The notes under the pieces were generated by a model. It was not told where the DNA came from. It saw nothing but the letters and a program-made list of their open reading frames with translations, and did no database searches. Below are positions 48,979 through 51,916 of a DNA stretch of 51,916 nt, piece after piece. Numbering within the stretch: the first letter of the stretch is position 1; each line of letters starts with the position of its first letter. The stretch is taken from contig NZ_FNEY01000035.1 in NCBI RefSeq assembly GCF_900100305.1, positions 1 through 51,916 of the forward strand. The letters run 5' to 3'. The position numbers and the translations under genes are program-made. This stretch comes from Paracidovorax citrulli. Lineage in GTDB: Bacteria; Pseudomonadota; Gammaproteobacteria; Burkholderiales; Burkholderiaceae_C.

Positions 48979-49329
48979 CTACTTCTCCAGCGTACTTCTA
49001 CTCCATATCAAAACCTTGGAATCACCAAAGTAAACATAATTAACACTTCGATCAATTTCAAAATCGTGCAAAAATCTTCCCGGCACTTTTTTGCTAGCCA
49101 TTGCCAGAACAATCTTCAAATATGCTCTGTCGCCTTCCACTCTGGACTCATAGGTCTTTGCACCCAACGCACTATGAAGAACCAGCCCACTCAAACGCAA
49201 CCTTTCGGGGTCACCATCTATTAAACGAACCTCAAAATCTCCGACGTCCTTGTACTCAAGCACAGTCGCAGAGCAAGCCGATAAAATAAAAGAGATCAGT
49301 CCCATAAAAAATAAGCGTATAAATCTCAT
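48979..49329 (-). CDS. small lipoprotein, probable immunity protein of the Rhs tip toxin
   Basis: This 116-residue protein has a lipoprotein signal: MRFIRLFFMGLISFILSACS with lipobox LSAC and Cys19. The mature part is a compact beta-rich domain (VLEYKDVGDFEVRLIDGDPE, then YLKIVLAMASKKVPGRFLHD and VNYVYFGDSKVLIW). Its ATG overlaps the Rhs stop as ATGA, so the toxin and this gene are translationally coupled, the standard arrangement for a toxin-immunity pair. A lipoprotein location places protection in the periplasm, consistent with a tip toxin that attacks the cell wall. The family is not recognised; the immunity role is inferred from position and targeting. Confidence 0.7.
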   Translation of the reverse strand: MRFIRLFFMGLISFILSACSATVLEYKDVGDFEVRLIDGDPERLRLSGLVLHSALGAKTYESRVEGDRAYLKIVLAMASKKVPGRFLHDFEIDRSVNYVYFGDSKVLIWSRSTLEK

Positions 49330-51916
49330 AAAGAACTGCCAAGTGAGTTTAGTGAAACACTACCTGAAGAGCGACCAAAAGAACCGAAGGACGCACTTGA
49401 AGTCCCGTTGGGCTTGGTTGCGAATTCACTTACCTTCCCTCCATTCGCATTAATAATCGAATTCTTTAGAGTACTCGGGTTACTGATGGGGCCAAGGTTC
49501 GAGTTCAAATTTTCACCCGTTGCAGTCTGCCAAGCATCTCTTGCAAAGCTCGAGCATGGAGCACCAAGCTTCCAGGCGTTTTCTTTCCTATTCTTGTAGT
49601 CTTCAATTTTCGCCATCAACTCCTTCTCTTGTTCATCGTTGATTCGCATAGATCGCGTGGCATCTGCATTACGGCCAATCTCTAAATTCTCGAAGAGCCC
49701 ATTTCCTTGGCCCGTGGGATTATTCCCCCAAGTACCATAGGTAGTCGGATAACCGCCATCTGGAGCGTACGTTATCCATGAATGGCCAGACAACGGATTT
49801 CCATTGCCTGAAGATTGGATGGTCAATATTCCAGACAATCCCAGGGGGTCTATCCAGCTTATCGGGTTTCCCGGATAGGTGAACTTATTCAAGCCGCCAA
49901 GCAGCCCAATCGGATCCTGCGTCACATACTGCCCCAGCAGGGGGTCGTAGTACCGGAACCGGTTGTAGTGCAACCCTGTCTCCACATCGAGCTGCTGGCC
50001 CTGGAAACGGATGTCCTGGCCGATGCCGTGCGGGTCGTATTCCTCGCGCACGGCACCCCAGGCGTGGTAGGTCGCGGCCCAGGTGACCAGGCCCGCCTGC
50101 GGGCCGTTGGCGTCCACCAAGGCAATAGGCGTGCCCAGGTGATCGCACAGGAAATGGCGGATACGCGTCGAGTGGGCTTGCGTGGCGACCTGCTGTTGCC
50201 GGCGCACGGACTGCACCCCCGCAGCCAGCAATGCGCCGGCCTCATCGGGTAGGCCTGCCCGCAGGCGCGCCAGTAGTGCATCCCCCTGGGGGCCCGTGGC
50301 GTCGTGCAGGGCACGCTCAAGCAGTTCGCGCTGGGCTCGCGGCAGGCCCGCGAACAGGGCTGCGGCGGGGAATTCACCGCCATCCGGACCATCATTGGCG
50401 ATGCTTCCACGGTTTTCTTCCATCACCAGCATGGCCTGCATGGCCGTGGGAATGGCCTGCTCGCGCTCCAGGCGCAGCAGCGGCGCGAAGGAGCCGGGCT
50501 CGTAGAGCACGTGCTGCAGCCCCTGCGGGCCTTCGTTGTGCACGAGGCGGTCGCCGTCCCAGCCGGCATAGGTGGTGGTCGCCGGTCCCGATGCAGGTGC
50601 GTTGCCGTTTCGGCTTCTGTTGCCGTGCCCGAAGACGGTCTTGGCCAGCCGCCGCCCGAAGGGGTCGTAGCGGTAGCAGGCCACCCGCTGCCAGGCGCCA
50701 CCCGCTGCCTCGCGCTGCCAGACCTCGCGCAATTGGTGCAGCGCGTCGTAGCGCAGCCGCTGCGCCCGGCCGTCGGCGTGCAGCGCCTGCACCCGGTTGC
50801 CGAAGGCGTCGTAGCGGTAGCGGATCAGGATGCCGTTGCCGTTGCCGTTGCCGTTGCCGTTGCCGTTGCCGTCGCTGCCAGCGATGCTGGTGCCATCGGC
50901 ATCCGGTTCGGGGGTGCTCCACCCGATGCGGTTGCCCGGCCAGCGCGTGACCGGGCCTGCACCTTCGCCGGGCCCGTCGCCCGCGCGCAGCAGGTCGAAG
51001 TCCGCATCGTGCAGGTTCTCGCGCACCTGCCGTGCCCAGCCCTGGCGCTCGCTCGCAGAAGACCCGGCCGCGCGCGCATCCAGGGACGCGGGCAGGCGGT
51101 TGCCCGCCGCGTCCAGCGCCCAGTGCGCTTGCACTTCCGGCGTACCCTGGCCCGCGCGGTGCAGCCCGCTCAGGCGCTGCCAGGCGTCGTAGCCGTAGCG
51201 CGTGGCTTCGCCCGGGGTCTGCACGCCGACCAGTTGGCCCAGCGGGTCGTACCAGTAGCGGCGCTGCGCGAGCGTGGACAGCGGGCCCAGGGCCGGGGCG
51301 ATGCGGCCCGCGGCGGACGAAGGACCCGTTCCGAAGGCGTTGGCCGGGTCGGCAGGAACCACCGGCGTCGCATGGCGCAGGCCGCGCCAGTCCTGGTGCA
51401 GCATGCGGCCCATCGGGTCGAGCTGCCGCGCATGCACGATGGCGTGCAGGTCTTCGTTGTCTTTGCCTTCGAGCACGTGCAGCGTACGCCCCACCTCGCG
51501 GTGCAGCGCATCGCGCTCCCAGTCCACCAGCGGCTGGCCGTCCAGCAGCAGCCCGTGCACATGGCCCGAGCCGTAGGCCAGCCACTGCAGCGTGCCCAGG
51601 CCCTGCGCCTGAGTGGCCGTGCGCTGGCCCAGCGGGCCCAGCGTGTGGGTGATCGCGTGCTCGAACTCCACGGGCGGCTCGCCGCCGGCATGGGGCGCTT
51701 GCGGCTGGGTGGCCTGCCGGTACAGCGTCTGGGTCTCTCCACAGACACGCCCGAAGGCATCGCGCGCCAGGGCCACGCGGGCCTCGGGCTGCAGCCGCTG
51801 CGCCTGCAGCGCGGCTGCCAGCGGGGCCTGGGTCGGATCGCTGGGGCGGTCCAGCAGGGACAACAGTGCCTGCGTGTCCAGTGCCAGCCAGCGCTCGGCG
51901 AGGGGGATGGGTCGGT
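49326..51916 (-). CDS. Rhs-family polymorphic toxin, C-terminal part (start outside window)
   Basis: At least 863 residues of a YD-repeat Rhs protein are seen; the frame is open to the right edge, so the N-terminus is missing. The core shows YDAWQRLSGLHRAGQG, YRYDAFGNRVQALHADGR, LRYDALHQLREVWQRE, YRYDPFGRRLAKTVFG and the core end HFLCDHLGTPIALVDANG, GQDIRFQGQQLDVETGLHYN, RFRYYDPLLGQYVTQDPIGL. The cleavage-type end DPLGL (49836-49850) marks the border to a 169-residue tip (49329-49835). The tip has GHSWITY (His) before GAPCSSFARDAWQTATGE (Cys), suggesting a permuted NlpC/P60-like amidase, then a Ser/Gly-rich tail. Core DNA is GC-rich and tip DNA AT-rich, as for recombined tips. Confidence 0.9.
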   Translation of the reverse strand, partial: RPIPLAERWLALDTQALLSLLDRPSDPTQAPLAAALQAQRLQPEARVALARDAFGRVCGETQTLYRQATQPQAPHAGGEPPVEFEHAITHTLGPLGQRTATQAQGLGTLQWLAYGSGHVHGLLLDGQPLVDWERDALHREVGRTLHVLEGKDNEDLHAIVHARQLDPMGRMLHQDWRGLRHATPVVPADPANAFGTGPSSAAGRIAPALGPLSTLAQRRYWYDPLGQLVGVQTPGEATRYGYDAWQRLSGLHRAGQGTPEVQAHWALDAAGNRLPASLDARAAGSSASERQGWARQVRENLHDADFDLLRAGDGPGEGAGPVTRWPGNRIGWSTPEPDADGTSIAGSDGNGNGNGNGNGNGILIRYRYDAFGNRVQALHADGRAQRLRYDALHQLREVWQREAAGGAWQRVACYRYDPFGRRLAKTVFGHGNRSRNGNAPASGPATTTYAGWDGDRLVHNEGPQGLQHVLYEPGSFAPLLRLEREQAIPTAMQAMLVMEENRGSIANDGPDGGEFPAAALFAGLPRAQRELLERALHDATGPQGDALLARLRAGLPDEAGALLAAGVQSVRRQQQVATQAHSTRIRHFLCDHLGTPIALVDANGPQAGLVTWAATYHAWGAVREEYDPHGIGQDIRFQGQQLDVETGLHYNRFRYYDPLLGQYVTQDPIGLLGGLNKFTYPGNPISWIDPLGLSGILTIQSSGNGNPLSGHSWITYAPDGGYPTTYGTWGNNPTGQGNGLFENLEIGRNADATRSMRINDEQEKELMAKIEDYKNRKENAWKLGAPCSSFARDAWQTATGENLNSNLGPISNPSTLKNSIINANGGKVSEFATKPNGTSSASFGSFGRSSGSVSLNSLGSSL
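50832..50873 (-). repeat. in-frame hexanucleotide microsatellite in Rhs coding Gly-Asn repeats
   Basis: Plus-strand GCCGTT is repeated six times without error (50832-50867), followed by a GCCGTC variant to 50873. On the coding strand it reads GGCAAC, giving a Gly-Asn run between SDG and LIRYRYDAFGNR. As the unit is six bases, gain or loss of units changes linker length but never the reading frame. Confidence 0.92.

Follow-up and report, generated by a model that had tools for sequence, protein, structure and literature searches.

The window analysed here, a stretch of 51,916 nucleotides from Paracidovorax citrulli (contig NZ_FNEY01000035.1), ends in a minus-strand Rhs gene whose C-terminal tip very probably adopts a permuted papain-like (permuted NlpC/P60) fold, as judged from a predicted model. 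By analogy with related enzymes, we consider it probable that this tip is the toxin domain of an Rhs effector delivered by a type VI secretion system (T6SS), and that it acts as a periplasmic acyl-ester hydrolase of membrane phospholipids. We class the tip as a new sequence family of an established kind, namely antibacterial toxins of the permuted NlpC/P60 type. The locus is laid out as follows:

49836 to 51914, minus strand: Rhs core with YD/RHS repeats and the Rhs-associated core, truncated at the contig end (hidden Markov model (HMM) matches; DPLGL at 49836-49850 included).
49428 to 49835, minus strand: predicted permuted NlpC/P60-like catalytic domain, tip residues 1-136 (translation, alignment, predicted model and structural neighbours).
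49782 to 49784, minus strand: codon of His18 (GHSW), the candidate catalytic His, on model strand 18-25.
49554 to 49556, minus strand: codon of Cys94 (PCSSFA), the candidate nucleophile, residue 2 of model helix 93-106.
49329 to 49427, minus strand: Ser/Gly-rich tail, tip residues 137-169, predicted disordered and lineage-specific.
48979 to 49329, minus strand: predicted immunity lipoprotein of 116 amino acids with the lipobox LSAC; homologues adjoin the tip at all four other close loci.

The open Rhs frame (49326-51914, minus strand) extends beyond the contig end, where the window stops as well, so the N-terminus of the Rhs protein lies outside view; the TTG at 51863 is merely a mechanical start. 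RHS/YD-repeat HMMs matched the frame, as did the NCBIfam model Rhs_assc_core (E 7.2e-25). An earlier note on this DNA had described an Rhs tip following DPLGL, and the minus-strand translation of 49326-49850 indeed consists of DPLGL, a 169-residue tip at the C-terminus of the Rhs frame and a stop. All motifs named there were found, namely GHSWITY (His is residue 18), GTWGNN (34-39), the helical part DEQEKELMAKIEDYK (67-81) and PCSSFARDAW (Cys is residue 94), and the entire tip contains one His and one Cys. The tail, put at about 35 residues in that note, comprises 33 residues (11 Ser, 5 Gly) and is predicted to be disordered, with a predicted local distance difference test score (pLDDT) below 50 for residues 137-169 and block means of 28-33 from residue 141. 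Because it recurs in the tips of P. oryzae and Buttiauxella and is absent from those of Dyella and a Geobacteraceae metagenome-assembled genome (MAG), the tail is, judging from these sequences, a lineage feature outside the domain proper.

Relatives of the tip were sought by genome scans, profile searches and a named-species scan. Matches were found in 2 of 100 near-relative genomes (its own and one congener) and in 1 of 369 genomes of the class (its own), and convincing ones in 2 of 398 genomes of the phylum; four further phylum matches (L005-L008, E 0.0045-0.01), with internal stops in each, were dropped. The named-species scan gave five loci from 17 pattern stretches, with tips from Paracidovorax oryzae (99% identity), Buttiauxella agrestis (67%), the Geobacteraceae MAG (58%), Dyella choica (52%) and a Calothrix plasmid (28%). 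A profile search of the order of genome G295 matched in 4 of 295 genomes and supplied three more distant tips, the near-identical stand-alone genes L017 and L018 and the Rhs tip L019. The Calothrix record was the only plasmid hit for the tip, while neither the Dyella tip nor the immunity protein of the window matched any plasmid; phages likewise held no match to the tip, and none was confirmed in viral contigs (13 and 27 pattern stretches). When the tip or its alignment was searched against Pfam, NCBIfam and the PDB sequences, nothing credible came up; the top Pfam entry with the window tip was CBP4 (E 0.10-0.11).

In an alignment of nine tips, which reaches down to 26-28% identity with the window tip, the columns G17, H18, W20, G34, C94 and P120 were invariant. 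The earlier note had staked its proposal on conservation of the His and Cys among homologues; both are retained in 9 of 9 tips down to this identity, and for this reason the His/Cys motif is judged to be beyond chance. When the third polar residue and the conserved Tyr of the tetrad were sought in this alignment, no invariant polar residue or Tyr was found besides these columns. A scan with a broader profile matched in 3 of 398 genomes, the only new match being L068 (1288-1986, minus strand), a secreted-looking 232-residue protein with a signal-like start, from the same phylum and with no obvious immunity gene nearby. It lies outside the nine tips, since the aligner gapped the His of its PHAFF motif and the pattern PHAFF...YG...NCVHFA...P comes from reading by eye. 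L068 may be a non-toxin relative.

Some of these relatives stand apart from Rhs genes. L017 (1067-1923, minus strand) and L018 (1477-2333, plus strand) form a stand-alone two-gene cassette, in which no delivery domain was seen, of a 160-residue permuted-papain-like protein and a 125-residue small protein with a WGC lipobox-like start, adjoining genes that resemble thiL, pgpA and dxs by eye. The Calothrix homologue (L014/L009, 1816-2514, plus strand) is a free protein of 232 residues that is not part of an Rhs; no immunity gene is obvious beside it, and the gene listed next is a 74-residue open reading frame (ORF) on the opposite strand. At the MAG locus (L013, 1543-2532, plus strand), a second Rhs C-terminal fragment with a different tip and a small downstream ORF directly follows the tip/immunity pair, which looks like an orphan toxin array.

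In the predicted model, strands 2-9, 18-25, 31-35, 47-49 and 59-65 make up an N-terminal subdomain of five strands; the helical subdomain after it (helices 67-82, 84-89, 93-106 and 120-130) carries Cys94 near a helix start. This arrangement, with a conserved His before a conserved Cys, is that of permuted NlpC/P60 enzymes. A structure search, which the earlier note had suggested, brought up such enzymes as the nearest structural relatives, and solved members of the group are similar in structure, although Foldseek alone was weak. At the sequence level, neither the TseH-like family PF25218 nor Peptidase_C92/YiiX (PF05708) had a listed Pfam match to the window tip or any of the nine tips. The tip core (A5) was also compared with family profiles in hhalign, using 100 column shuffles as control; the profiles were built from Lnb_N (6 of 6 loci), Peptidase_C92 (6 and 7 of 14 loci) and NLPC_P60 (9 of 12 loci). 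Scores for C92 (13.4; shuffle maximum 17.2) and a C92 subfamily (12.2; maximum 19.0) were within the shuffles, none of the four profiles was significant by hhalign probability, and global mode gave nothing (scores 1.5-6.1). The case for family membership is therefore made by the fold and the residues and not by the sequence. The papain-like toxin/immunity pair in PDB 9l5u was a weak match (E 3.3 over 33 columns), and the toxin of PMC13377157, which has a DNA-binding pocket, was set aside as unrelated.

The gene following the tip starts with an ATG that overlaps the toxin TGA (ATGA), and its product carries the lipobox LSAC with Ser at +2; signals and lipoboxes here and below were judged by eye and by pattern. 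Homologues stand beside the tip at 4 of 4 other close loci (BLAST E <1e-13). With P. oryzae excluded, BLAST identities were 50-64% for the toxins and 31-37% for the immunity proteins. A lipobox is present in the P. oryzae (L010) and Dyella (L012) proteins, the MAG protein (L013) has a non-canonical FSAC, and that of Buttiauxella (L011) has a Sec-like start with no lipobox Cys. A search of the order with the immunity profile matched a single genome out of 295, which is also the one that carries the close tip. In the distant pairs (L017/L018 and L019), the small proteins next to the tip are unrelated and start with a hydrophobic segment, and at the Calothrix locus no immunity gene was identified. 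The window protein is modelled as an N-terminal signal and lipobox followed by an all-beta part, only one of five models being confident. The adjacent lipoprotein, which the earlier note had suggested testing together with the tip, is the likely immunity protein, and the envelope-type neighbour in every identified pair points to the envelope as the site of action.

Next to this gene lies a 40% GC stretch (48515-48978) within the 70% GC window, which holds no convincing gene; its 83-residue minus-strand ORF (48652-48903) had no credible family match. A 164-residue ORF (48020-48514, minus strand; 56% GC), flanked by the immunity gene and by one that resembles fabI by eye, matches DUF6714 (Pfam E 8.9e-9, above the cut-off) and is possibly an orphan immunity gene, and 48515-48978 looks like remnants of older cassettes.

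The Rhs core has a GC content of 71.3%, the tip one of 46.7% and the immunity gene one of 42.0%; at the four other close Rhs loci the value also falls from core to tip, by 9 to 22 points, which indicates a swapped cassette. Together with the Rhs core, the DPxGL junction and the adjacent immunity gene, this is the make-up of a T6SS Rhs effector. TssC is present in the same genome, as are two more Rhs genes with cores 84% and 76% similar and other tips. In the one-contig genome of a congener, a VgrG gene (Phage_GPD E 2.9e-110) lies immediately upstream of an Rhs gene whose core is 89% identical; this Rhs sibling starts with MSGKPAARQGDM, which is PAAR-like by eye, while Pfam shows only DUF6531 and RHS families. 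VgrG linkage was seen only for this sibling in another species, and Pfam gave no PAAR match in it. The RhsB protein of Acidovorax citrulli comes from what we take to be a closely related plant-associated group. RhsB is described as self-cleaved at both ends and as requiring VgrG3 and EagT2 (PMC10989746). From this precedent and the DPLGL junction we infer that the tip is released by Rhs self-cleavage at DPLGL. Within the Rhs core, a perfect seven-copy hexamer array (50831-50872) encodes Gly-Asn repeats; it may be a variable tract, because the P. oryzae copy has fewer repeats at this site.

We propose that the Rhs cage would cut itself at the DPLGL junction and free the 136-residue domain, which, given its envelope-type immunity, would act in the periplasm of the target cell. 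Cys94 would most likely attack the acyl ester of membrane phospholipids, forming an acyl-thioester and a lysophospholipid whose release would break the membrane, by analogy with Tox-Act1 and TseH. The small downstream envelope protein, which most close members make as a lipoprotein, would block the toxin at the membrane. Permuted NlpC/P60 enzymes have been described as having hydrophobic S1 pockets and likely lipid-like substrates, and the YiiX structure was re-refined with a bound fatty acid (PMC3142127). Tox-Act1, a Salmonella T6SS toxin, is reported to cleave phosphatidylglycerol and phosphatidylethanolamine by means of its required His and Cys, and to be toxic in the periplasm, not in the cytoplasm, so that cells lyse yet keep their rod shape; phospholipase activity is reported for TseH as well (PMC12994826). 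Because of these pockets and phospholipase reports, membrane lipids are more likely the target of the tip than the cell wall. A point against lipid attack is that RID and PPPDE proteins, also permuted members, are described as peptidases, so that not all members act on lipids.

The earlier note had proposed a permuted cysteine enzyme that acts as a cell-wall amidase or peptidase. The His-before-Cys papain-like fold was supported, but the cell-wall activity was not, as the nearest relatives likely act on lipid-like substrates. A permuted papain-like amidase or endopeptidase, with the same fold and periplasmic site but cutting a stem-peptide bond, is nevertheless the alternative that survives best, though we think it unlikely. 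Canonical NlpC/P60 peptidases share the superfamily of the tip, periplasmic immunity would suit them equally, and a TseH-like Salmonella candidate effector was earlier classed as a peptidoglycan hydrolase (PMC10469887). In canonical enzymes, however, the Cys precedes the His, the reverse of the tip; no PF00877 match was listed at E <= 10, and the canonical profile scored 18.0 against a shuffle maximum of 21.4 (18.4 with the five close tips). Moreover, cells lysed by Tox-Act1 left rod-shaped remains resembling an intact sacculus (PMC12994826).

A lipoprotein-directed acyl enzyme like Lnb, removing or moving acyl chains on target lipoproteins while the lipoprotein immunity shields or mimics the substrate, appears improbable. 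Of the four profiles, only Lnb_N beat all 100 shuffles (19.1; maximum 16.1), with the Cys helices in register, and lipoboxes occur in the immunity proteins of the window, L010, L012 and, loosely, L013. Yet the hhalign probability was 1.5%, far below significance, and the signal came from the three distant tips (20.7), the five close ones alone giving none (11.7). L019 is also the only one of the nine tips to match Lnb_N (PF13387) in Pfam, as the best of its three weak matches (E 0.024, 14.6 bits against 22.2 required), and the close immunity protein of L011 lacks the lipobox Cys. We give similarly little credence to the bolder idea that the tip founds a toxin clade directed at envelope-lipoprotein acyl chains, not bulk phospholipid, as a weaponised cousin of Lnb with the immunity lipoprotein as tethered inhibitor or pseudo-substrate. 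A RID-like or PPPDE-like permuted papain acting on envelope or cytoplasmic proteins is also hardly probable, as envelope-targeted immunity disfavours a cytoplasmic target and RID acts on host Rho GTPases. Papain-like domains can serve as releasing peptidases in polymorphic toxins (PMC3482391), but a non-toxin role in Rhs auto-processing, or a degenerate domain, is very improbable for a tip that sits after DPLGL at the extreme C-terminus, retains its candidate catalytic residues, precedes a conserved small envelope gene and has distant relatives in stand-alone gene pairs.

With the tip, the antibacterial toxins of the permuted NlpC/P60 type gain a branch that is Rhs-delivered, distinct in sequence and paired with an immunity family of its own. 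T6SS members of this kind, such as TseH, were earlier interpreted as cell-wall enzymes. Compact at about 136 residues, and with one His and one Cys only, the domain is well suited to a clean test of whether toxins with this fold attack lipids. In the literature on permuted, papain and NlpC toxins, TseH, Tox-Act1, Rhs in general and Acidovorax Rhs, no title or abstract opening among the matches listed describes the tip family or its lipoprotein immunity; full texts, for the most part, and supplementary tables were outside this scope, so the family could be listed there.

Compared with known systems, the T6SS effector TseH (PDB 6v98) is 8% identical to the tip in structural alignment, and its family PF25218 matches none of the nine tips. 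To our knowledge, TseH is not an Rhs tip. Among the closest known systems are also YiiX/BcPPNE (PF05708; PDB 2if6, 3kw0), whose profile gives no sequence signal with the tip, and HRASLS2 (4dpz); we know of none of these as a toxin with an immunity gene. Lnb_N (formerly DUF4105), a Bacteroides lipoprotein N-acyltransferase and non-toxin, shows by eye a similar order of GH, Cys helix and later Pro in some of six aligned sequences, whereas the window tip itself gives no match and that of L019 is below the Pfam cut-off. RhsB of A. citrulli shares Rhs architecture, self-cleavage and downstream immunity with the window Rhs, but carries a nuclease tip that is delivered to the cytosol (PMC10989746). 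Imm-Act1, the partner of Tox-Act1 (STox_15; Salmonella SPI-6 T6SS phospholipase), has two transmembrane helices (PMC12994826), whereas the immunity proteins here form a small, mostly lipobox-bearing family and the 116-residue neighbour, judged from its signal, lipobox and model, appears to lack two such helices. By its published description, Tox-Act1 has a His-Cys spacing of 108 (H43, C151) against 76 in the window tip, but like the tip it is a permuted NlpC/P60 toxin with His before Cys, and its reported periplasmic action and membrane-associated immunity correspond to the mode proposed for the window pair (PMC12994826).
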